NCBI GenBank assembly: GCA_029279945.1
Contig: JAJUHK010000004.1
Coordinates: forward strand, 79,278-143,277
Origin: Pseudidiomarina indica
GTDB taxonomy: Bacteria; Pseudomonadota; Gammaproteobacteria; Enterobacterales; Alteromonadaceae
Direction: 5' to 3'
Length of the DNA stretch: 64,000 nucleotides
In this document: positions 1,832-63,922 of the stretch, piece after piece
Position numbering within the stretch: position 1 is the first letter of the stretch
Layout of the letters: each line of letters begins with the position of its first letter
The notes under the pieces: model-generated
The model's input: only the letters and a program-made list of their open reading frames with translations
What the model was told of the DNA's origin: nothing
Database searches by the model: none
Translations under genes and position numbers: made by a program

Positions 1832-1895
1832 GGATCATTTCCTCACAACAAATCAGAAATAATCCGGTCGGGCAGGTTTTTGTAATGGAGTATTG

Positions 1896-1999
1896 AAGCT
1901 ACCATCCCTACGCCAGTATTAACCGGATCAGGTGCAAAGGGTTCACACAATGTGTATCTCAGCCGGATAAATCAGTTACTGAATTATCAGGCACCCCTT
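1896..1999 (-). promoter_or_regulatory. TPP (thiamine pyrophosphate) riboswitch
   Basis: On the minus strand the conserved THI-box elements occur in order: GGGGTGCC near 1999, GGCTGAGA near 1955-1965, GAACCCTTTGCACCTGATC, then GGTTAATACTGGCGTAGGGA. This is the full pattern of the pyrimidine- and pyrophosphate-sensing helices of the TPP aptamer. It sits about 65 bases upstream of the TonB receptor ATG. I see no strong intrinsic terminator between aptamer and start codon, so control of translation initiation is more likely than attenuation (inference). A TATACT hexamer at 2017-2022 is a candidate -10 box just upstream. Confidence 0.95.
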
Positions 2000-2032
2000 G
2001 GTATTCGTGCGCAGCTAGTATATCAGAATAAC

Positions 2033-53233: not shown

Positions 53234-53504
53234 ACTCACCATTCTGGTTTTTCACAACTGTTTCATACTCACCGCCGCACTCACCGCAAAACTGCTACGC
53301 AACGGAAAAACCAGGAAGCCCCAGAAACAACAATGCCCTTTATTTAAAAGGGCTTTGGAAGCATCAGGGAAATATCAGACAGCGTAGAGAAAATTATTCA
53401 ATATTCTGGATCTGCTTATTGATTAATTCTTAATATCATATTAAATCAAATAGTTATTAGTTTATCAGCATGCTTATTGAATAAGACTGAACAAAAGACT
53501 CACC
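53234..53504. repeat. Four direct ACTCACC repeats beside the integrase remnant
   Basis: ACTCACC occurs at 53234, 53267, 53279 and 53498; two copies extend to ACTCACCATTC. All lie just upstream of the integrase start, where arm-type integrase sites are expected. Whether they bind integrase is an inference. Confidence 0.55.
53335..53356 (+). terminator. Hairpin with T-run, possible terminator
   Basis: GCCCTTT pairs with AAAGGGC across ATTTA, followed by TTT on the plus strand. It lies in the 405-base gap between the integrase remnant and herA, which contains no gene. Confidence 0.45.
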
Positions 53505-53602
53505 ATTCAAGCCCGCCCAGCTTTGTTGATAAGATTCAATTTTCGAGCCGAATACTTAGTTTGTTTTTACATTCGCCATTCAGCTCATACAACAAATAGC
53601 TC

Positions 53603-55345
53603 TTATTTACTTTGATAACGCCACTTCCGAACTACCGCGCTAATTTGGCCTATGGTCAATGCCTCACTTTGCCAGCCCTTGTCAAAATCAACGTCATTTG
53701 ATCTGGGTAATTGATCCTCAGACAAACTTCGAATCATGACTCTAGTAGGTAACGTGGCTGCTTGACCAACAAAGATAGCTTCCTGACGTCTTAAACCTGA
53801 AAGCATTTTTGTTAAGCCGGACATCGAATCCGGTAACACACTGCGAACATGCTCGCGGTCGGCATCATTAGTTATTCGAAGTACTATCCATGAATTACAT
53901 TGCGACAGAACAGTCGCTTCAACTTCACTCGGCCTTTGCGAGACTAATAATAGACCTACGCCATACTTTCGGCCTTCCTTGGCAATTCGACGAACTGCAG
54001 ATTGAGCAGCCTCATACTGTGCCTCACCACGATTTGGTACGTATCGGTGTGCCTCTTCACACACCAAAAGTACAGGACTATTTTGCCGTTCGGCCTCGGT
54101 TTGCCAGACTTTAAGTTGAAACACGATTCTAGCGATGGCAGCGCTAGCTACACCAGCCACTTCATTAGGTACACCAGACAAGTCAACAATTTGCACTGTG
54201 GTTTGCTGCGTTAAGAATTGATTGACGATTGTTGGTAATGGATCTTCAGCTTCATCCCAACTTTCCATCATAAACTTGAGCCGACCGTCTTTTAGCAAGG
54301 AATCAATCTTTCGAATGACTTTATTGTAATCTTCGTGATCTTTTTGAGCTTTATTTGATGGTCGCTGCTGATTAATTGCTCCAATTAATCCTTCTGTATA
54401 CAGCTCATCGTCTTTTTTGCCAAAATTATCCAGCCCACTACTGTCACCGATAACATAAGGGATTGGTGAATCAACTGTCAGCAAGCTCCTATCAAGCCCT
54501 AATTTTTCAGCGGCTTCCTCACGAGCAGCAATCAGAGCATTCTTAACAATGTTTGATTGTGACGTTGCTGCAAACTCAGTCTTGCCGATAAACAAGCTCA
54601 GTGACTCTTCTAAATCGAGTAACCAATACGGTAGTTTCAGTGATCCCTCATCTGTCGATAAGCGTCGGTGTGCTGGAAACGCCTTACCATATTCATTATG
54701 TGGGTCGAGGATAATAATTTGCGGATGCCAGTGTTCATGACTGGCTATCTGGCCACGTTCGAGAATACTGTGAATAACTGCCGCAACAGTGCCTGATTTA
54801 CCGGCTCCGGTGGAACCAAGAATGGCAGTATGTTTGCCTAGCAACTCGTTAAGCTCTGCGTAACAAGGGGCACCGCCTGATCCAACATGCTCGCCAAGTT
54901 GAATAACGGCACCTTTGGCGTCACCGTAAATAAACCTAAGCTCTGATTTGGGTGTCAGGTAAATGGTTTGCTGTGGCAGTGGGTAAGTGGCAACACCGCG
55001 CTCAAACTCGAGGGTAAATTCATCCTCTCCCTTCTTGCGCCATTCACCCTCACCAAACAAATCTGCTTCAATAATACGTTCATCAGAAGAGGCAACAGGC
55101 AAACCCTTTTCTATCTGATAATCGGCCTTCATGCGCAGCCGGCTCACTAAGCCATAAATAGAACGGTAACCAAAATGGATTTTGATAATTGAACCAAACT
55201 GTCCAATAGGGTAGTTCTCACCTGCAAAAACTCGAGAAAGATCTGAAATAGCCGGGTCTAGCTCGGCGATAATACGTGATCCATCGACTTCGATAATTTT
55301 TCCGATAGATAGATTCTTAATGGGTTTTATATACTTATTATCCAT
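53603..55345 (-). CDS. herA: HerA-type ATPase of a SIR2-HerA defence module
   Basis: 580 residues from the ATG at 55345, preceded by AAGGAGGT at seven bases. The N-terminal HAS-barrel-like region (about 10-100) is followed by the FtsK/HerA motor: Walker A GSTGAGKSGT near residue 180, LDPHNEY, Walker B LLVCEEAHRYVP and LVSQRPSEV. The gene starts one base after the SIR2 stop, so the two are one translational unit. Paired SIR2/HerA proteins form a large complex that degrades NAD+ and DNA upon phage infection (established for SIR2-HerA, also called Nezha). Confidence 0.93.
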   Translation of the reverse strand: MDNKYIKPIKNLSIGKIIEVDGSRIIAELDPAISDLSRVFAGENYPIGQFGSIIKIHFGYRSIYGLVSRLRMKADYQIEKGLPVASSDERIIEADLFGEGEWRKKGEDEFTLEFERGVATYPLPQQTIYLTPKSELRFIYGDAKGAVIQLGEHVGSGGAPCYAELNELLGKHTAILGSTGAGKSGTVAAVIHSILERGQIASHEHWHPQIIILDPHNEYGKAFPAHRRLSTDEGSLKLPYWLLDLEESLSLFIGKTEFAATSQSNIVKNALIAAREEAAEKLGLDRSLLTVDSPIPYVIGDSSGLDNFGKKDDELYTEGLIGAINQQRPSNKAQKDHEDYNKVIRKIDSLLKDGRLKFMMESWDEAEDPLPTIVNQFLTQQTTVQIVDLSGVPNEVAGVASAAIARIVFQLKVWQTEAERQNSPVLLVCEEAHRYVPNRGEAQYEAAQSAVRRIAKEGRKYGVGLLLVSQRPSEVEATVLSQCNSWIVLRITNDADREHVRSVLPDSMSGLTKMLSGLRRQEAIFVGQAATLPTRVMIRSLSEDQLPRSNDVDFDKGWQSEALTIGQISAVVRKWRYQSK

Positions 55346-55346
55346 G

Positions 55347-56486
55347 TCAAATACCTCCTTCAAGAATCTCAGTTAGGTTTTCAAATTTCCACCATTCAAT
55401 ACTATTGACAGATAAGGCCTTCTTCTCTGCGTGGAAAAAACCTTTGTCGGCAAAAATAAGTACTTGTTCGTTGATTGAATTATCTTCATACCAAGTCTGC
55501 AACACACCGCTAGGTTCGTCGTCGCTGGTAAACGCAATCACAGTCAAATCACCGTTTGAAGCTCTCAGGCCACGCTCAATTTCAAGATTGATATGCGCAT
55601 CACCAAAGCTATAGCCAGTGATCAGTAAAACACGTTGGCTTCCACCTTTTGGAGTTAAAACCGCTCTCGCTCGATGCAGTAAGTTTGCATAGGGGTCGAG
55701 CTGAGTTTCACGATACTTAGTCGATGCAGGCCAAATCATAATCTTTGTGGGCTGCTCTTGGTTGCGCTTCAAATGCGGAGCAATTCGTAACGGAGTGAAT
55801 GAAGAAGAATGTTCTGCCCAATTGATTGAACCATGCAATTTAAATACACGTGCGTCCAAATGACCATGTTCAAACGTTGAAGGGTTCCACCATCCTGATA
55901 CACCACCTTCCAAGCCATCGGCGTACCGAAGTTGAGAGAGCGCTAGAGCGTCTTCTATTAACGTATCGTAGTTCATCACCAGGTAATCAATAGTACTGTA
56001 GTTATCTTTGCCATCTCGAAGAGGCCGGTGAAGAGCCTGCACAAAACGTTCATGCATAGCTGAATCAACTTCAATATTAATCTCGTCAAAAATCGCGAGT
56101 TTTATCTCTTTGATGGTCTGTATTAGCTGGTCTTTACTGTATTCCACACCATCAATATCAACCGTACTATTTGGAACATTACGGTTAGCTCTGCGAGCCG
56201 TAATGGCAAGCCAATCAACAAGCTCGCTTAAATAATCTTCTATATGCGAAGCCGGATTTGCCCCAGCAAAAAAATTTTGTATGGCAGTCAAAATTTGTTT
56301 TGAGTCGTCAGAGAGCTCTGCACTTTGTAGCACCCTTTCGGTAAGATGACCTGTCAATGGTAACCCTGCGCAAGAACTAGCCCCAGCGCCAAGCAAAATA
56401 GCCTTAGAGTGTGAGAGTAGCTCTTCAAGTTTGTTGATTGCCTCTTTAAACTCTTTTTGTTCAAACACAGTGGCGTTGAATGCCAT
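55347..56486 (-). CDS. SIR2-domain NADase of a SIR2-HerA defence module
   Basis: 379 residues. Sirtuin-type NAD site: GAGASSCAGLPLT (residues 33-45), NYDTLIEDALALS, catalytic His in FKLHGSINW, and ITGYSFGDAHIN near the C-terminus. Strong ribosome-binding site GGAGGG before the ATG. In defence contexts such domains hydrolyse NAD+ to stop phage growth. Lies upstream of herA with one base between. Confidence 0.93.
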   Translation of the reverse strand: MAFNATVFEQKEFKEAINKLEELLSHSKAILLGAGASSCAGLPLTGHLTERVLQSAELSDDSKQILTAIQNFFAGANPASHIEDYLSELVDWLAITARRANRNVPNSTVDIDGVEYSKDQLIQTIKEIKLAIFDEINIEVDSAMHERFVQALHRPLRDGKDNYSTIDYLVMNYDTLIEDALALSQLRYADGLEGGVSGWWNPSTFEHGHLDARVFKLHGSINWAEHSSSFTPLRIAPHLKRNQEQPTKIMIWPASTKYRETQLDPYANLLHRARAVLTPKGGSQRVLLITGYSFGDAHINLEIERGLRASNGDLTVIAFTSDDEPSGVLQTWYEDNSINEQVLIFADKGFFHAEKKALSVNSIEWWKFENLTEILEGGI

Positions 56487-56495
56487 ACTCCCTCC

Positions 56496-56612
56496 TTAGA
56501 TTTTACCTTTAAAGGCTGAATCGAGAATTGATGCTTTCCGGCGCTGCATCGTTATTATTTTCTCAGAAATTTCAGTTTTTTTTCTGTGCTGCGGCAGGGG
56601 CTTTGCTGTCAA
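56496..56612 (-). CDS. Possible 38-residue protein upstream of SIR2
   Basis: A TTG start preceded at seven bases by GGGAGG opens a short basic peptide ending RRKASILDSAFKGKI. Its stop is nine bases before the SIR2 start. The tail recalls the C-terminus of type I specificity subunits, so it could be a gene relic rather than a real small protein. No homologue recognised. Confidence 0.35.
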   Translation of the reverse strand: MTAKPLPQHRKKTEISEKIITMQRRKASILDSAFKGKI

Positions 56613-56636
56613 GTTGCTTCCTCCCGTTGTCAGAAA

Positions 56637-56774
56637 TTAATAAAGATAACCAGTCTCAAGCTCCGAGGATGAAATACCAATAAAACTATCTGGAGAGCAT
56701 GCACCCGTCCGAAAATCTGCGGCTGGAAGAGCGGGACCAATATAATTTGCCCTAGTATCAGCCTTTGACGGCAT
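56637..56774 (-). CDS. Possible 45-residue ORF in the same frame, remnant or leader
   Basis: ATG with GGAG seven bases upstream; reads SKADTRANYIGPAL and ends ELETGYLY. It is in frame with the 38-residue ORF, separated only by a stop at 56637-56639, which suggests a single degraded gene. Bases 56775-56926 hold nothing else I can see. Confidence 0.25.
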   Translation of the reverse strand: MPSKADTRANYIGPALPAADFRTGACSPDSFIGISSSELETGYLY

Positions 56775-56926
56775 CCCTGCGCTCCATGTTCACTAATCCA
56801 AGTCGGACCTAACCTCTCCCAAATAGCCTTGGTTGGGGAAACGTAATGATTTTAAAATTGTAACTTATAACGTACATTATCAGAGTTTGTTGATAATTTG
56901 GATATTGAAGAATCAAAAGGCAAAAA

Positions 56927-57595
56927 ATGCATCCAGAACTGAGGAACGTTCACGAAAATATGAAAAACCTTGGGCTAGGAGCATTAGCGCATGCTAATTG
57001 GCACGGGAATTTTCATAGCTTCGAGAACGACAAATGGTACGAACTCTCAATTTTACAAGCTGCGCATGCCGCTGAAATTCTAATAAAAGCGCGCATCGCC
57101 CAAGAACATCCCTTACTTATATTCGAGCAAATCCCGCGCTCCACACAGGTCGACACAGAGTTTTTAGACTTCACATCATTAACGTCAAAAGCTAAGACTA
57201 TACAGTATGCGGATTTGCCGGAGCGGCTTTGGGCTACCACCGGAATTAAACTGCCCAATGTGGAGCTATTTAAAGCTTTCGGTGCTATTCGGAATTCAAT
57301 TCAACATTTCGCAACCCCCGGTGATTTCGAACACAGCACAAATGACCTCATTTACGAGGTAATTGATCCATTCATCAACGATTGCTGGGGCCTTTATGCA
57401 ATAGATTATTGTGAAGACCATGAACCTTACATATATCTGATTGAAGGGCTTATAAGAGGAGGTACTGAGTTTTTGGTCTCCCCGGAGAGTATAGATAGCT
57501 TGCAATATGTAGATTTTAATTGGCCTGCTAATAATTATAGAAATAAGATGAATAGGCGCTTCAAAGAAGCTGGCTATATCGGGCCTAAGCTTTGA
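56927..57595 (+). CDS. HEPN-like domain protein
   Basis: 222 residues, unrecognised by name. Helical N-terminal half with QAAHAAEILIKARIAQEHPL; then AIRNSIQHFATP, which gives R-x4-H, the catalytic signature of HEPN RNases. The C-terminal half is acidic and aromatic. AAAAGG is present upstream. Located in a defence cluster divergent from SIR2-HerA. Possible toxin or effector; function is inference. Confidence 0.7.
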   Translation: MHPELRNVHENMKNLGLGALAHANWHGNFHSFENDKWYELSILQAAHAAEILIKARIAQEHPLLIFEQIPRSTQVDTEFLDFTSLTSKAKTIQYADLPERLWATTGIKLPNVELFKAFGAIRNSIQHFATPGDFEHSTNDLIYEVIDPFINDCWGLYAIDYCEDHEPYIYLIEGLIRGGTEFLVSPESIDSLQYVDFNWPANNYRNKMNRRFKEAGYIGPKL

Positions 57596-57692
57596 GAAAA
57601 CATGTATATTGCGCTGCGCTGTTCATAATTTGATCATTTTTGGCTTTCAGAATAGATTAGGAGACTTATGTGCAGCGAATAAGGAGATCACC

Positions 57693-57944
57693 ATGAAATG
57701 CCAAAACTGCGATAAATCCCTGAAAATAAGCCAATACAAACACAACGATACTTGGAAATCCTGTCCGAAATGTTCTCAAGCGAACGGGCAAATGCATGTA
57801 TTTTATCGATACCCCGACAAATTTGGCACCACCCCTCAACGTTCATCACCTGCACACCCGGAAGGTGCACAAAGCTATTGCACCTGCTGCAGAGGTGATA
57901 AGGTGGCAGATCTAACTCACGCTCGAACATGCGACCACGTTTAA
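57693..57944 (+). CDS. Small zinc-ribbon-type protein
   Basis: 83 residues from the ATG at 57693, chosen for AAGGAG upstream. Two Cys pairs near the N-terminus (MKCQNCDKSL, WKSCPKCSQ) and a second set (SYCTCCRGDK, ARTCDHV). Eight bases ahead of the methyltransferase, so probably co-transcribed. Function unknown. Confidence 0.65.
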   Translation: MKCQNCDKSLKISQYKHNDTWKSCPKCSQANGQMHVFYRYPDKFGTTPQRSSPAHPEGAQSYCTCCRGDKVADLTHARTCDHV

Positions 57945-57952
57945 GGAAATAA

Positions 57953-58627
57953 ATGAATCTATTTAGACAAGATGCCGTCGATTGGCTCCGAACACTACCG
58001 TCTGACTCAATCGATCTTGTCGTCACTGACCCACCTTATGAATCTCTAGAAAAACATAGAGCGGTAGGCACAACTACTCGCTTGAGTCATAGCAAAAGTT
58101 CAAGTAATAACTGGTTTCGTATTTTCCCGAACGAACGTTTTCCCGAGCTGGTCAGTGAAATATATCGAGTCCTGAAAAATAACCGTCACTTTTATTTATT
58201 CTGTGATCAAGAAACGATGTTTGTCATTAAACCTATAGCTGAGGCCGCAGGCTTTAGATTTTGGAAGCCCTTGGTTTGGGATAAGCAGGCAATTGGAATG
58301 GGCTACCATTATCGCGCCCGATATGAATTCATCCTTTTCTTCGAAAAGGGAAAGCGAAAGCTTAATGATTTAGGCATGCCTGATGTCCTCGAAGAGAAGC
58401 GTGTCTGGCGAGGCTACCCAACAGAGAAACCGGTAAGTTTAATTGAAAAGCTGATTACTCAAAGTACTCAGCTTGGTGAAACTGTCTGCGACCCATTCTT
58501 CGGCTCTGGATCTTCTCTGATCGCAGCCACTAACTTAGATAGAGCCGCCTTAGGTAACGATATTGCCGACGATGCACATGACTACATAGGCAAGCGTCAA
58601 ATGGGTAAAACCGTTTCGGTTAAGTGA
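57953..58627 (+). CDS. DNA adenine/cytosine-N methyltransferase, beta class
   Basis: 224 residues. Catalytic DPPY motif at residues about 24-30 (DLVVTDPPYESLE) precedes the SAM-binding motif DPFFGSGSSLIAATN near the C-terminus, the beta-class order. Length suits a compact phage/plasmid enzyme. No restriction endonuclease is recognised next to it. RBS AAGGAA, four bases spacer. Confidence 0.92.
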   Translation: MNLFRQDAVDWLRTLPSDSIDLVVTDPPYESLEKHRAVGTTTRLSHSKSSSNNWFRIFPNERFPELVSEIYRVLKNNRHFYLFCDQETMFVIKPIAEAAGFRFWKPLVWDKQAIGMGYHYRARYEFILFFEKGKRKLNDLGMPDVLEEKRVWRGYPTEKPVSLIEKLITQSTQLGETVCDPFFGSGSSLIAATNLDRAALGNDIADDAHDYIGKRQMGKTVSVK

Positions 58628-58691
58628 TGCCTACCTACCTCTCAATTTCCACTTCGAAAACTAATTATGAAGGCTAGGCGGAATTCAAGAA

Positions 58692-59957
58692 TCAGCTGAA
58701 ATCATCAAGTTTCTTATTAAGTTTGCCCCAAAGCGGCTTAAGCTGACGCTTTATCGCTTTTGACTGCATTTTATCGGCAGCTCGTAACCCATAGCGAATG
58801 AAATTGCGGTTACCTAAATGACTGTACCGCTCGTATAACTTCTTTTTTCTGAGGCGCGCTTTTTCATCTTTTTCTAATTGGCTATTTAGTGTCCTAGATA
58901 CCAGTCGAATAGCCTTATTCATTCGGCCCGAAAACTTCGCCAATGCTGCTGAGCGCAACAAAATTCTCTGCCCATCAAATGTAAAACCTAAGTACTGAAG
59001 AGGTGCGTTCGCTTTCAAAAGCCCACCATATCGCCAAAAGCGTCTTACTTCGGTCTTCTTGGGATTTATGACGACACCTAATTTAGTAAGCTCAGAGTCA
59101 GCTTGTGACTCCACACGCGCTTCGCATCCACGCTTAACGATAAAAAGCATATCGTCACAGTACCTACGATAGCTGCCGCCGCACTCTTTAGCTAAGACTT
59201 TCATTTGCTGGTCAAAATCTATCATGTAGATGTTCGACAGTAACGCGCTTATTGGCGTACCTTGAGGTATCCCAAAGCTTTTTTCATTGGTAGTAATTAA
59301 GCCAGAATCACGGACTCGCGCTCTAAACTCAGCAGCTTCACAGATCCTTTGTCGGCCATTCCATGGATTACTTGGTGAGATCTGAAAAGCTTTATAAACC
59401 GCGTCACGATTGCAAAATGAAAACTTTGTGAGTGACTTATATACTGCGTAATGATCATTCGGAAGTGTCTCTTCGCTAAGGACATCACACCAGGACTTTT
59501 TTAAATGCTGATGATTCAACGTATCGAAGAATTTTGAGATATCAATTGCTACCGCCGAGCAGCGGCCCATATTACTGATCTCTGTGAAGGCATCACGTGC
59601 AAATTCGATATTCGATTTACGGAGCTTTCTGAAGGCTAGAACGCATTCTGATAGTTCAAGACTAGCTAACTTTCTCTCGTAGGCTTCAGCTAGTTGATTA
59701 GCGTAAAAGGAATATATCTGAGAATCCGCATGCGCAGCATAAGAAATAGGCCGAATTTTTGGTTCCGGCTTTAACTTACCATCTGCACTACGTCTGAGTT
59801 TTTTCGAGATGACTTCGTACCGAAGCAATGGGTAAAAGGCGTGTTTGGAGACAGCTTTAGTATTTCTGACTAGCTTAGCTGCTCTGGCTGCACCAATCGG
59901 TGCATCAAAGTGAAGGTAACCTCGCTTTTTATACCAAGCAGGTTCATCCTTTGACAT
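58692..59957 (-). CDS. drt2: Reverse transcriptase of DRT2 type
   Basis: 421 residues from the ATG at 59957 (RBS AAAGGA at seven bases). N-terminal segment WYKKRGYLHFDAPIG; RT motifs AIDISKFFDTLNH (metal Asp), GIPQGTPISALLSNIYM, YRRYCDDMLFIV (YxDD with Cys), then PKKTEVRRF and LQYLGFTFDG. No maturase X, HNH or integrase domain, so it is neither group II intron nor transposon RT. It is preceded on its own strand by a structured non-coding region with neo architecture. DRT2 RTs make concatemeric cDNA from that RNA and defend against phage (established). Confidence 0.9.
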   Translation of the reverse strand: MSKDEPAWYKKRGYLHFDAPIGAARAAKLVRNTKAVSKHAFYPLLRYEVISKKLRRSADGKLKPEPKIRPISYAAHADSQIYSFYANQLAEAYERKLASLELSECVLAFRKLRKSNIEFARDAFTEISNMGRCSAVAIDISKFFDTLNHQHLKKSWCDVLSEETLPNDHYAVYKSLTKFSFCNRDAVYKAFQISPSNPWNGRQRICEAAEFRARVRDSGLITTNEKSFGIPQGTPISALLSNIYMIDFDQQMKVLAKECGGSYRRYCDDMLFIVKRGCEARVESQADSELTKLGVVINPKKTEVRRFWRYGGLLKANAPLQYLGFTFDGQRILLRSAALAKFSGRMNKAIRLVSRTLNSQLEKDEKARLRKKKLYERYSHLGNRNFIRYGLRAADKMQSKAIKRQLKPLWGKLNKKLDDFS

Positions 59958-60077
59958 GCAAGAATCCTTTTGCAAAACCCAAAACGGCTTAGACTGTGGC
60001 CATCCGGTACCGTCTTGGGCTTAACAAACGTAGTTGTTACGTATACTTAGCGCTTATGCGCCGGGCCACTCATATGT

Positions 60078-60209
60078 CACATATGATGTATAATATCATT
60101 GCGTCACAGGGAACTATCGGCATGTTTCAGCTAATCGTTATGTGCGGCTGCTCAAGGCATGTGGTCACCAGTTATGGTTGCTGGTTCCAATTGCTACTTG
60201 ACAGCTTGT
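60078..60209 (+). other. neo: 132-nt neo repeat unit (cDNA-sense, endless ORF on concatenation)
   Basis: The unit spans one ACA-to-ACA interval. In the genome this plus frame is open from 59996 but stops at TGA 60209-60211. Joining base 60209 to 60078 turns that stop into TCA and keeps the frame (132 = 44 x 3), so a tandem cDNA is an ORF without a stop. Translation can start at ATG 60122, with AGGGA nine bases upstream. The repeated peptide begins SHMMYNII and ends CWFQLLLDSL; it is hydrophobic with three Cys. The unit is not expected to be expressed from the chromosome. Confidence 0.82.
60089..60203 (+). promoter_or_regulatory. Split promoter halves that unite only in tandem cDNA
   Basis: TTGACA (60198-60203) lies after TATAAT (60089-60094) in the genome. 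Across a repeat junction they become TTGACA, 17 bases, TATAAT, the ideal sigma-70 promoter. The predicted transcription start falls about 20 bases before the neo ATG. Confidence 0.82.
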
Positions 60210-60302
60210 GATACACCTCCGACTCTACAGACGGAGCACCACCATAGTATCTTCAATGTATGGTTAATGCAATTAACATAATATCTACACGGAATCGGGA
60301 TC

Positions 60303-60716
60303 ATGGAAGAGCGAAGCGTTACTATTTACAAACTTTTTATCGACGCTAACAATAAGTTTGATCAGTTTATTTTGGCGATGTTAGTAACTTTGTTGACCTA
60401 TTTAATGACAACTATCCAGCTAGCGCCGATAGGGCTAAATTCATCAACAGTGGCTCTCGTGTCTTTAATTTTTATAGGGCTAGCTGTAATTTTCGGCTTT
60501 AAAAGAATTGAGTCAAACATTACTTTGCAACGCCTCAATCATGAGGCTTTGCATTACTCAGAGATTGAGAATCGCTACCGGGCCAAAACATTTAAAAAAG
60601 CCATGCCTGCGCGAGCGAGGTTTGCCAAATCCTTTTATCATCTTCGTAATGCATTTATACTCTTGGGACTAACTGCATATATATCCTCAAAAATTCTTGC
60701 CGCCTACCAGATATAA
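60303..60716 (+). CDS. Small membrane protein of unknown function beside the RT system
   Basis: 137 residues, three predicted helices (about 20-40, 50-66, 115-132) with a basic cytosolic loop between the second and third. Divergent from the ncRNA. No homologue recognised. Could be an accessory of the RT system or an unrelated cargo gene. Confidence 0.65.
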   Translation: MEERSVTIYKLFIDANNKFDQFILAMLVTLLTYLMTTIQLAPIGLNSSTVALVSLIFIGLAVIFGFKRIESNITLQRLNHEALHYSEIENRYRAKTFKKAMPARARFAKSFYHLRNAFILLGLTAYISSKILAAYQI

Positions 60717-60729
60717 CAATATGGATCGC

Positions 60730-60942
60730 TCAGTTAGCTTCTTTCCATTTCATGGTCTCCGACAAAAGCCACCTTTTCTGTGACCCTACTCGATAAACCG
60801 GTGGCGTTTTGCCTTGGCGCTCTAGCCGCCACCAAGTGGTACGGCTGATACCAGTGATTTCTGCGCGCAGTTTTTCATCAATGTATTGATCAAACGGCGC
60901 TGACAGTGATGTTTGAGTTCGCTTTTTAATTTGTTGGGACAT
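60730..60942 (-). CDS. AlpA-like HTH regulator
   Basis: 70 residues from MSQQIKKRT. HTH segment EITGISRTTWWRLERQGKTPP and then RVGSQKRWLLSE match the AlpA/MerR-like prophage regulators. Overlaps the upstream excisionase-like gene by 17 bases. Confidence 0.75.
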   Translation of the reverse strand: MSQQIKKRTQTSLSAPFDQYIDEKLRAEITGISRTTWWRLERQGKTPPVYRVGSQKRWLLSETMKWKEAN

Positions 60943-61165
60943 AGCTCTTTTGAATCCATGCGTCAACTTCAGAGCGTTTGAACATTACGCGCTTACTGGG
61001 TTTGAAATGCGGAATTTCTTTTCGGTGCGTGAGCTTGTAAATGGCAGATCGAGATAGCCCCAAATATTTCGCACACTCATCAGCCGTCATGTACTCCTTA
61101 GTTACCAACTGTACTTTCTTCAGTTCTGTCATTGCCTGGCTAATTAGCTTTAATTCTGGCGACAT
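60926..61165 (-). CDS. Excisionase-family HTH protein
   Basis: 79 residues from MSPELKLIS; AGGAG eight bases upstream decides the start. YMTADECAKYLGLSRSAIYK, then LTHRKEIPHFKPSKRVMF and RSEVDAWIQKS is the standard excisionase/HTH_17 domain. Likely controls element excision or expression together with the AlpA-like gene. Confidence 0.82.
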   Translation of the reverse strand: MSPELKLISQAMTELKKVQLVTKEYMTADECAKYLGLSRSAIYKLTHRKEIPHFKPSKRVMFKRSEVDAWIQKSYVPTN

Positions 61166-61195
61166 CGGCATTCTCCTCATGTGTCGGGCTTTCAA

Positions 61196-61578
61196 TCAAT
61201 GCCACTATCTTACCTTTGGTTGCTCCTATACCACCGGTCTCTAGCTTCCCATTTTGGGCAGTTAGAGCTGTTTACCCCTATTTTTTATTCACAACTCAGC
61301 GCAGCTAATAATTGTATATTTGTATTTTTAATTGATTTAATTGGTGTAAGAACTTCATCTAGCTACAACGTTCGAGAACATTGGGCGTGCACAAGTTAAA
61401 AGCTTTATTTTGATAGGTGCATGCACGTGTTTTATGAATAAGAGTACGCATCGCAGTAGGTAAACGCACGCACCACGTCGGGTTATCTCAACGACTTAAT
61501 CAACGGTCTATTCAGTAATTGCAGGCATTCGTGATTAACCTAGTGACTTTGAAGGCAGAAACACGTGGATAAAATGGC
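61196..61578. other. Intergenic stretch downstream of repA, no gene seen
   Basis: A/T-rich interval of 383 bases. It includes a GTGCATGCAC palindrome near 61421-61432 and the predicted promoter region for the excisionase gene. Nothing coding seen. Confidence 0.5.
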
Positions 61579-62535
61579 TTATTCAACACTAGCTGTGGAA
61601 AGCTTTGTAGCGGCGGGACCAGGCGGTACATGCGGCTGATAGCGTTTCAACACCAATACATCTGACTCGCATATAACTTTACCGTTTATCGCTGGATATG
61701 CCAGTGCCACCAGCACCAATTGTCGCTTAAAATGCTGTTTAAATGCCGCTAGGTTTTGATTACTCGCAAACTGCCGGTGCAGCTGAAGCCAGCTAACACG
61801 AGTAACCTGCTTTTTTAACGATACAGCTCTCCACGCCAGCCACGTATACAGATCGAACGCAAACGGTGTTTGGATGAGCGCATCAACAGCGCTCTTATTC
61901 AGCGGTGTTAGTGAATGGAAGATTTGATGTTTAACCGGCTCTGAAAGTTGAGGCAATGCCGTAGTTGGGTACCGCAGGCCTGACCGCTCAAATAAGGGAG
62001 CGGCGCTTATGACCGTTTGTTGGTCCCGTGATACCGTCAATGTCATCTCAAAGAGAGCCTGTAACTGAACTTTCAAACGCTTTACGTCTGCTCCACTGGT
62101 ACCGAGGCCTAATGCTTTCAGTAAAGAAGCTTGAGATTTCGGGAAATTGATAATGCCACTGCGAGAGATATGATTGGCGATGTAGAAAAGAATGCGTCTA
62201 GCGATAGTGCCATAAGGTAGATGGCTTGTTGTACTCAATTGCATCGATATCTTGCCGGAGTCACGAAAGAACAGCTTTTGCTCTGTGCTCGCCATCGGAA
62301 GTGACAACTGGCAGAACAGACTAGGGTAATACACAATCTCGGGCTCGCCATTTTGCGCGTTAAGTAGCTTAACTATCCGTTCAAGCTTTTTACTGTTATT
62401 TCCGCTCCAACCCAAGTTTATTACCCCGACATCGTATCTCATGATTAATGTTTGAAGACGGTTATTGTTGATCAGCTTGGGAAGTAGCCACGTCTGTGTT
62501 CGTGTCCAATTTGGGCGATTACAGCCCTCTAGCAT
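61579..62535 (-). CDS. repA: Plasmid-type RepA replication initiator
   Basis: 318 residues. The segment SHLPYGTIARRILFYIANHI with following FPKSQASLLKALGLGTSGAD and RLKVQLQALFEM matches the RepA_C plasmid initiator pattern (LPYGxxxRxLLxW...; LGL...G...LRxQMxRLF). No good ribosome-binding site precedes the first ATG; a later ATG at about 62439 is an alternative. Its presence suggests the element can replicate or derives from a plasmid. Confidence 0.72.
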   Translation of the reverse strand: MLEGCNRPNWTRTQTWLLPKLINNNRLQTLIMRYDVGVINLGWSGNNSKKLERIVKLLNAQNGEPEIVYYPSLFCQLSLPMASTEQKLFFRDSGKISMQLSTTSHLPYGTIARRILFYIANHISRSGIINFPKSQASLLKALGLGTSGADVKRLKVQLQALFEMTLTVSRDQQTVISAAPLFERSGLRYPTTALPQLSEPVKHQIFHSLTPLNKSAVDALIQTPFAFDLYTWLAWRAVSLKKQVTRVSWLQLHRQFASNQNLAAFKQHFKRQLVLVALAYPAINGKVICESDVLVLKRYQPHVPPGPAATKLSTASVE

Positions 62536-62578
62536 CAGATTTTTTCTTTTGATTACTTAGCACTTTTCAAACCTTGGG

Positions 62579-62598
62579 AACTTTCACATGTGAAAGTT
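62579..62598. promoter_or_regulatory. Perfect 20-bp palindrome upstream of repA
   Basis: AACTTTCACATGTGAAAGTT, fully self-complementary, lies 44 bases upstream of repA and about 80 bases before the divergent membrane gene. Candidate operator for RepA autoregulation or part of an origin. Confidence 0.55.
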
Positions 62599-62677
62599 TT
62601 GGCACTGCTCGTTGACTGAAACGTTGCATTTTTGCGCACTCTGATATGCTTATTGTGGAGCTAGGGGAGGACGAGCA

Positions 62678-63058
62678 GTGCTGAAAAAATACTGGATTTG
62701 GACATCGGCGGGATTATTAATACTAGGTAGCATTGAAGCTTGGTTATCTGGTTTTAGTTATATTCCGTTCGCTTGCGTATTAGCGGTGATGAACAGTGTG
62801 GTTGCGTTGGTGATTAAAGGACTTGCAACCTTCTTTCGCGCTTTGCGGAAACTTTTTTCTCCGATCAACTATGAGCCCTTACTTATTTCTAGTGACTTTC
62901 AATATAACGCTTCTGAAAGCCATCGAAATAATTCACATAGCGCCTTTAATGATTCTCTCGACCCGAATAATCCGGACAATTGGTTTGATGACTTCCATTT
63001 CGACCCAATATTCAACCACACCCATCCACTTCACGATTTGTACGACGATTTTCGATAG
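62678..63058 (+). CDS. Small membrane protein with Asp/Asn/His-rich tail
   Basis: 126 residues, GTG start after GGGGAGG (seven bases). Two hydrophobic helices (about 8-25, 29-50), basic segment, then a polar tail with DPNNPDNWFDDFHFDPIF and HTHPLHDLYDDF. Unknown function; typical of conjugative-element cargo. Confidence 0.65.
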   Translation: MLKKYWIWTSAGLLILGSIEAWLSGFSYIPFACVLAVMNSVVALVIKGLATFFRALRKLFSPINYEPLLISSDFQYNASESHRNNSHSAFNDSLDPNNPDNWFDDFHFDPIFNHTHPLHDLYDDFR

Positions 63059-63361
63059 GTAATTTCTATTGGAAAAGACTGTTATGGATAGGATATCCCA
63101 CTTCCCACATTAGTCTGGCAGACGGCACTCTATTTCCGCCAGACGTTGTCGCGTGGCTGCTTGGAGCAGGCTGCTAACTTCCCACATCAGCTAAGTTACT
63201 GGAAAGGGATTGGGGAGTTCCCCTTCATACTCGGTTGATAGCTGTTGGGAAATTAATTCATAGCAACCGGCTAGAACTGACCAAAACAGGCAATTAGCGG
63301 TGCGCGCTTCCGCCGTCGTTCACCTTAGGATTTTCAACGTTCATACATACAGGAGAAAAAC
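63059..63361. other. Repeat-rich intergenic region, candidate oriT
   Basis: 303 bases without a gene. Contains the 11-bp direct repeat ACTTCCCACAT (63100, 63177), an inverted repeat GTCTGGC/GCCAGAC (63113-63119, 63138-63144), and a GGGGA-GT-TCCCC hairpin at 63212-63223. In SXT-type elements the oriT lies just upstream of mobI; the same position here is suggestive only. Confidence 0.35.
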
Positions 63362-63922
63362 ATGAACTTTGAAGACCTAATTCAAGCGTGGCAAGCAAAG
63401 ATGCGTACTGCCGATACAAACTTGGTTAATCAGGCATTTGCCAATAGTCGCGATTTTGCCAAACACACCCATGATATGTGTCGTGTTGACCAGGTTCGAT
63501 TAGCTTATATAGCCAATCGTGCAGCTGATCACTTTTGGATTCATAATCGAGCCCACCGAACGACTGCAAGCGAAGGTTTTCCCAGCCATTATGGTTGCCG
63601 AGTCCGGCTAGCGGCGCCGAAATTCGAACTCAGTTGGTATTACAACCAGTTTAAAAAGAAGAACGACGGCAGCGGCAAACACAACGTCATAAGCCATTAC
63701 CTGCCCAAAGAAGGACGGTACGGCTACTTCGCCAATCGTTTCAGAAAAGCACACGATTGGGAGCTCCCCATCATTTTGGACACCGAATACGCCTTTAATC
63801 TGTGCCGTCGTATCAATCACAACCTGACGACTATTCGGCGTAAAACGCTAATGAACATTCGCCTGCTGGAATCATTAGAGCGGCACCTAGGTGAATTGGA
63901 GGGGCCGCGCCATGAGCAATAA
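63362..63922 (+). CDS. Element protein of unknown function, possibly MobI-like
   Basis: 186 residues, RBS AGGAGAAA upstream. Segments: VNQAFANSRDFAKHTHDMCR, HYGCRVRLAAPKFELSWYYN and RFRKAHDWELPIILDTEYAF. I do not recognise it with certainty; general pattern (W-rich beta core then helical tail with WE and E) recalls MobI mobilisation proteins. Its stop overlaps the next start. Confidence 0.55.
   Translation: MNFEDLIQAWQAKMRTADTNLVNQAFANSRDFAKHTHDMCRVDQVRLAYIANRAADHFWIHNRAHRTTASEGFPSHYGCRVRLAAPKFELSWYYNQFKKKNDGSGKHNVISHYLPKEGRYGYFANRFRKAHDWELPIILDTEYAFNLCRRINHNLTTIRRKTLMNIRLLESLERHLGELEGPRHEQ

Follow-up and report, generated by a model that had tools for sequence, protein, structure and literature searches.

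The locus described here raises the question of whether a reverse transcriptase (RT) and the folded non-coding region in front of it constitute a complete DRT2 system and, if so, whether a readable neo gene could be assembled from it. In DRT2 systems an upstream ncRNA is copied by template jumping into a concatemeric cDNA that encodes neo, according to the available parts of two reports (PMC11100668, a preprint, and PMC12039810). The window, i.e., the entire 64,000-nt stretch of DNA that was analysed (contig positions 79278–143277), ends together with its contig, C4. We conclude, with a probability of about 0.88, that it carries a DRT2 (UG2) system consisting of an RT and its own upstream ncRNA, with a predicted anti-phage function, in which a 132-nt template is likely to be copied into concatemeric neo cDNA. 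At the level of sequence the RT family, the parts of the ncRNA, the ACA pair, the junction promoter, the AGGGA and ATG elements and the open frame are all demonstrably present, and the locus is apparently intact, with a readable neo gene.

Identity of the reverse transcriptase

The RT gene is as follows.

58692..59957 (stop codon included), minus strand: Drt2 (UG2) reverse transcriptase, 421 aa, with the catalytic motif YCDD

The profile search against DRT2 (UG2) that accompanied the original prediction as a proposal was carried out, and on sequence the RT belongs to Drt2/UG2 by three libraries. PADLOC identifies it as Drt2 at 618.9 and 522.7 bits, compared with 88 bits for the best non-Drt2 family, and the NCBIfam Drt2 model matches at 563.4 bits, above its curated cut-off of 390. 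The alignment with the DRT2 protein of Klebsiella (PDB: 9c0i; the available part of PMC12039810 gives 9c0i and 9c0j as the DRT2 structure codes) extends over residues 1–415 (E value 6.2e-130). RVT_1 is the sole Pfam domain, with no additional domain, and the YCDD motif was found, in agreement with the earlier description of a YCDD enzyme lacking intron or mobile domains. In the list of open reading frames the RT frame reaches a TTG at 59975, but the ATG at 59957 is where both the match to the family and the protein of Klebsiella begin. That the gene encodes an RT of a different class, whether group II intron, retron or CRISPR-associated, behind a leader folded by chance, has a practically negligible probability: such families also score, at low bits, but Drt2 leads the best other family by more than 500 bits, the group II maturase model reaches 83.3 bits, far under its cut-off of 300, and the ncRNA scaffold is matched by a covariance model.

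The upstream non-coding RNA

The ncRNA and its two structured ends are placed as follows.

about 60237–59970, minus strand: DRT2 ncRNA, with ends set by comparison (alignment with 19 other loci)
60217..60236, minus strand: SL1, the 5' handle hairpin; 89.5% of cells paired, double-sided changes in 4 of 5 pairs
59970..60077, minus strand: 3' scaffold with a pseudoknot (GUGGCC with GGCCAC) and a tower hairpin, placed by covariance model and compensatory changes

DNA homology to three Idiomarina-type loci ends at 60238, 60255 and 60274. The extent first suggested, 59975–60237, fits the comparison at 60237, while its other limit drops about 5 nt of the 3' end.

A covariance model was built from 14 scaffold sequences, none of them of the Idiomarina type and four derived from viral contigs without an assigned host. 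Its consensus structure comprises 18 pairs and leaves out the pseudoknot. In the 64 kb searched the model matches 59970–60075 at 50.5 bits (E value 1.7e-8), so that the covariance search envisaged with the original prediction recovered the scaffold from a model without Idiomarina-type sequences. Among 17 other sources, six (L026, L009, L004, L003, L022 and L014) are matched at an E value of 0.0006 or better and one (L103) weakly, while in the remaining ten nothing is matched at E values up to 1. The sole other hit in the window (55769–55892; 20.8 bits, E value 0.015) lies antisense in a SIR2 gene and is probably due to chance, and the same holds for a similarly weak additional match in L003 (20.5 bits, E value 0.024). 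Rfam models at gathering thresholds do not match the ncRNA region; their sole match in the window is a TPP riboswitch (1888–2008, minus strand; 82.6 bits).

The structure evaluated in the 20-row alignment comprised SL1, SL2, the pseudoknot, two hairpins and the tower. The pseudoknot is paired in 89.2% of cells, with double changes in 4 of 6 pairs, and the tower in 91.6%, with double changes in 7 of 9. SL2, the basal stem around the template in the published jumping model, is the weak helix: the window allows 4 pairs, and across the alignment 63.8% of cells are paired, with no double change. Overall, 83.6% of cells are paired versus 69.7% in shuffles, a figure that is favoured because the structure was drawn from the window, itself one of the aligned sequences. 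The covariation score is 0.477 versus 0.240 in shuffles, none of 500 of which scored as high, and versus 0.084–0.159 when the partners are slid. Two overall measures of covariation are unremarkable against the shuffles, i.e., the number of pairs with a double change (36/500) and that of further pair types (358/500). The predicted fold of 59970–60290 has a z-score of -2.59, with 2 of 100 shuffles equally good; taken alone this is weak evidence, the covariance match and the compensatory changes being the stronger. These two results uphold the proposal of a folded non-coding region directly upstream of the RT on the same strand.

Template, junction promoter and neo frame

Within the ncRNA, the following elements describe a template and, on the opposite strand, the gene that would arise from it.

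60207..60209, minus strand: ACA-1, the 5' end of the template; ACA in 19 of 20 alignment rows, AUA in L016
60075..60077, minus strand: ACA-2, the predicted jump acceptor in the right arm of SL2; ACA in the same columns of 18 of 20 rows (window included), AUA in L016 and L019
60078..60209, minus strand: template region, 132 nt (44 codons), from ACA-1 to the base before ACA-2
60080..60084, minus strand: predicted primer-binding site AUAUG, placed by position from published template bases 142–146 of 148
60078..60209, plus strand: neo repeat unit, a 44-residue repeat, stop-free only if joined head to tail
60198..60203, plus strand: predicted neo promoter, -35 element TTGACA, 17 nt from the -10 element across the junction
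60089..60094, plus strand: predicted neo promoter, -10 element TATAAT, from sequence
60108..60112, plus strand: predicted neo ribosome-binding site AGGGA, 13 nt after the -10 element
60122..60124, plus strand: predicted neo start codon ATG, from sequence

The segment 60078–60209 is bounded by the only pair of ACA motifs here that gives a full junction promoter. Joined head to tail, it yields TTGACA-17-TATAAT, which agrees with the sigma-70 promoter at 12 of 12 positions. In the genome the open stretch of the plus-strand frame is confined to 59993–60208, between a TAG (59990–59992) and a TGA (60209–60211). At the head-to-tail junction this TGA becomes TCA, and one frame stays open throughout. 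The earlier statement that the complement of the folded region is an open frame is accordingly correct for 59993–60208, though not for the region as a whole, and it takes head-to-tail joining of the 132-nt unit to make the frame endless. The 132-nt repeat itself, which had also been proposed, finds support both in the alignment with related loci and in the junction promoter.

The role of chance was assessed in 2000 dinucleotide shuffles of 280 nt, considering ACA-to-ACA units of 100–140 nt. A perfect junction promoter occurred in none of them, one with a single mismatch in 1 and one with two mismatches in 22. Some open unit was present in 641 of the 2000, and the open frame was rejected as evidence in its own right. 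Because open units are that common in shuffles, it is the promoter and the comparison among loci that carry the case.

A jump acceptor at the ACA at 60089 would give a repeat of 120 nt, as in Klebsiella, and this unit is likewise a multiple of three and open. Its best junction promoter, however, has three mismatches and is displaced, compared with none for the 132-nt unit, its cut falls at the -10 element, and the alignment sets the ACA at 60077, not that at 60089, against the ACA-2 of the relatives. We regard the shorter repeat as highly improbable and retain the 132-nt unit. Folding of the template upon itself was considered as a trait common to these loci and rejected, the z-score for the window being -2.39 and that for L015 0.07.

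As far as the accessible parts of PMC11100668 and PMC12039810 describe it, the Klebsiella system (KpnDRT2) resembles the window in having an upstream ncRNA with a 5' handle, template, pseudoknot and tower, two ACA motifs, a junction promoter with a spacing of 17 bp, a ribosome-binding site 13 nt downstream of the -10 element, and a stop-free repeat whose length is a multiple of three. It differs in the primer site, AUAUC (from the GATAT primer) rather than the AUAUG predicted here, and in its repeat of 120 nt versus 132 nt (44 codons). Most repeats in the available text of PMC12039810 are of 117 nt and several of 111 or 129 nt; the window's 132 nt exceeds this published range of 111–129.

Comparison with other DRT2 loci

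In 20 of 31 loci, the window included, the best ACA pair has a junction promoter of at most two mismatches. For 18 of these 20 (window included) the unit has a length divisible by three and a single open frame, the lengths being 132 (4 loci), 129 (1), 123 (2), 120 (5), 117 (5) and 111 nt (1); the independent cases are fewer than 18 because four are of the near-identical Idiomarina type. In L014 units of 129 and 134 nt tie at one mismatch. The two exceptions, L016 and L019, have open 111-nt units once AUA is accepted in place of ACA. At their jump sites AUA replaces one ACA (L019) or both (L016), the junction promoter being otherwise kept, and the two loci provide a natural experiment on the ACA pairing rule. 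The remaining 11 loci are without such a unit; one of them (L022) is cut by a contig end and ten are distant Drt2-like loci, and because of the latter not all RTs matched by the family models can be said to have this architecture. From a scan of viral contigs (best 80 of 96) L022–L031 were tried, and L028, which is partial, was dropped; a scan of genome contigs with a single protein gave only 2 loci.

Drt2 was found in 3 of 26 genomes of the host genus. The loci of Idiomarina ramblicola (L003), I. loihiensis (L004) and genome G220 (L009) have a 132-nt unit as in the window, and their RTs are 95%, 87% and 84% identical to that of the window, respectively. A second type from the same family or order (L006, L008 and L015) has 120-nt units, with a Neo of different sequence and length, and RTs only 50–51% identical to the window's. 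In L008 an internal TAA interrupts the RT frame beside an open 120-nt neo unit. A tree of the ncRNA handle and scaffold groups the Idiomarina type with this second type (support 100/99). The RT tree places the Idiomarina clade near L020 with no firm support; since the ncRNA grouping remains compatible with the RT data (p-AU 0.342), separate histories of ncRNA and RT were discarded and no swap between the two is claimed.

The original prediction knew of no description of such a system in this host lineage, which is only partly correct. NCBI already lists the I. ramblicola protein as "antiviral reverse transcriptase Drt2", while our search of the literature found no paper pairing Idiomarina with DRT2, nor with ArfA, a ribosome-rescue factor considered below, and just two in which DRT2 and ArfA occur together. 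The present analysis contributes a readable neo gene with a 132-nt repeat from a host that is probably an Idiomarina.

Edges of the module and its neighbourhood

Homology blocks were determined by comparison of four 20-kb stretches. The block common to the window and I. ramblicola (G188) extends over 53404–60255 (6.9 kb; 95.7%), that with I. loihiensis (G1020) over 57614–60238 (2.6 kb; 85.4%), and that with G220 over 58690–60274 (84.7%). Because the last contains the RT and the ncRNA only, the pair can occur without the window's neighbours (SIR2, HerA, methylase).

On the minus strand, 53603–56486 holds a SIR2-domain gene followed by a gene for a HerA/DUF87 ATPase, a pair that is anti-phage-like, scores under the NCBIfam anti-phage cut-offs and falls inside the block common with I. 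ramblicola. On the plus strand, convergent with the RT, 57609–58627 encodes a small cysteine-rich protein and an N6/N4 DNA methylase, which also adjoin Drt2 in I. ramblicola and I. loihiensis and are absent from the G220 block. The methylase (57953–58627) was rejected as part of the system, as G220 has only RT and ncRNA in common with the window. Divergent from the ncRNA, 60303–60716 (plus strand) encodes a 137-aa protein with two membrane helices discerned by eye and weak family matches only. This protein was also set aside as a component: among the loci compared it has no match beyond the window's own genome, and it lies outside the G220 block. Further on, 60926–63922 contains an HTH_17-type regulator, a RepA_C-like protein that scores below its cut-off and, where the contig ends, MobI; it is perhaps the edge of a mobile element.

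Conservation of the template

When the window is compared with I. loihiensis (L004), 195 of the 1266 sites of the RT coding DNA are different (15.4%), with a pS of 0.458 and a pN of 0.069. The template has no difference in 132 sites, compared with 4 differences in 108 sites of the scaffold and 2 in 29 sites of the handle (Fisher test of the template: p 8.3e-10 against the RT, p 0.017 against the rest of the ncRNA). In the other five pairs the template does not differ significantly from the rest of the ncRNA (p 0.066 to 0.33), and for this reason the sequence data are only suggestive of a template that evolves more slowly than the scaffold. In the only other pair of similar distance, L025 and L026, identity is 82% for the RT DNA, 88% for the template and 95% for the scaffold, and in the available part of PMC12039810 the template tends to vary more than any other part across 42 relatives.

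The RT data bear on whether the locus might be a relic, with RT and ncRNA intact but neither expressed nor defending any more. A simple scan of the ncRNA's own strand gave no promoter for it, as a relic might have it. Against this, the RT frame is open with a pN well under its pS in the comparison with L004, and the ncRNA is kept in all four Idiomarina-type loci even though the DNA flanking it upstream in the window does not resemble that in the other three (L003, L004 and G220). Loss of function appears very unlikely, and we continue to read the locus as an apparently intact system.

Within neo, which has 26.7 silent sites, about 12 changes would be predicted between the window and L004, and none was seen. 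Among the four Idiomarina-type templates three sites vary, all of them amino-acid changing, and no silent site does; judged on these sequences, such a pattern is not the usual mark of selection at the protein level. Either promoter, RNA folding and coding together freeze the template, or the nucleic acid itself matters more here.

Ribosome rescue and release of Neo

ArfA-mediated release of Neo has been proposed from the induction of ArfA, in the available part of the preprint PMC11100668, while that of PMC12039810 leaves tmRNA, ArfA or hairpin read-through as routes. ArfA is thus a host feature proposed in the former (as far as its accessible text goes) and not a defining part of DRT2.

In the window's genome (G000) no match to ArfA (PF03889) was found, even at E values up to 1, and none of the 26 genomes of the genus, three of which are less than 90% complete, has a match over the cut-off; sub-threshold matches occur in 10 of the 26, with E values of 0.058 or worse. 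With the ArfA of a genome of the same family as query, nothing was found in G000, and matches in 7 of the 26 genomes have E values of 0.21 or worse. The window's host, without detectable ArfA, is in this respect unlike DRT2 as modelled in E. coli hosts. In a broader set of 18 genomes found to carry DRT2, 14 were tested, and ArfA is present in six and gave no match in eight.

Six of these eight genomes have a third frame with an RF-1 domain, 139–159 aa long and of ArfB size, putatively ArfB on the basis of that size. Another, G713, has one long RF-1-domain frame plus one of 188 aa. In G000 the RF-1-domain frames comprise only the two long release factors, and the ArfB-like protein of G220 gives only weak matches to these two (E values 0.10 and 0.21). 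A tmRNA is present in G000, so that of the three rescue systems sought just this one was found, although the assembly, in 28 contigs and with completeness given as 99.96%, may lack a small gene. Because no ArfA was found in the genus, Neo would have to leave the ribosome by another route in this host.

Proposed mechanism and implications

By analogy with the Klebsiella system, the ncRNA and the RT would form a single RNP, with a short DNA primer set on the AUAUG site. Phage infection would trigger copying from the ACA-2 end towards ACA-1, whereupon the 3' TGT of the cDNA would re-pair with ACA-2 and allow the next round, giving rise to concatemers in a rolling-circle manner. A second cDNA strand would then be made, and host RNA polymerase would transcribe neo from the junction promoter. 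The product, Neo, would be an endless series of 44-codon repeats that halts growth, so that the phage fails. Its release in this host may depend on tmRNA, in relatives possibly on ArfB, or on stops arising from read-through at the hairpin ends of the cDNA.

The conservation of the template and the survey of rescue factors together raise the alternative that the concatemeric nucleic acid or its transcript is what acts, through trapping of ribosomes or depletion of tmRNA on stop-less messages, the released Neo being unimportant in this host. The template is identical to that of I. loihiensis over 132 nt despite the divergence of the RT, including the silent sites of neo, and the host genus lacks an ArfA over the cut-off, as the window's genome lacks a match to ArfB. 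On the other side, 18 of the 20 loci with a junction promoter retain a multiple of three with one open frame, a ribosome-binding site and a start codon are present, and promoter, ACA motifs and RNA folding also constrain silent sites. In the Klebsiella system, moreover, stop codons in neo abolish defence whereas silent changes preserve it, according to the available part of PMC12039810. We judge this alternative decidedly unlikely and favour a DRT2 system that acts through neo. A specific form of the idea, unlikely as well though slightly less so, is that stop-less messages of 44-codon repeats might overload tmRNA, the transcript itself arresting the cells with no need for an ArfA-released Neo. 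If true, it would account for the freezing of the template in its nucleotide sequence.

The value of this locus for the DRT2 family lies in its longer repeat, its frozen template and its natural host without detectable ArfA. The comparison names natural DRT2 hosts in which ArfA is not detectable, and it is there that the release of a protein from a stop-less message, as posited for DRT2, is directly testable.
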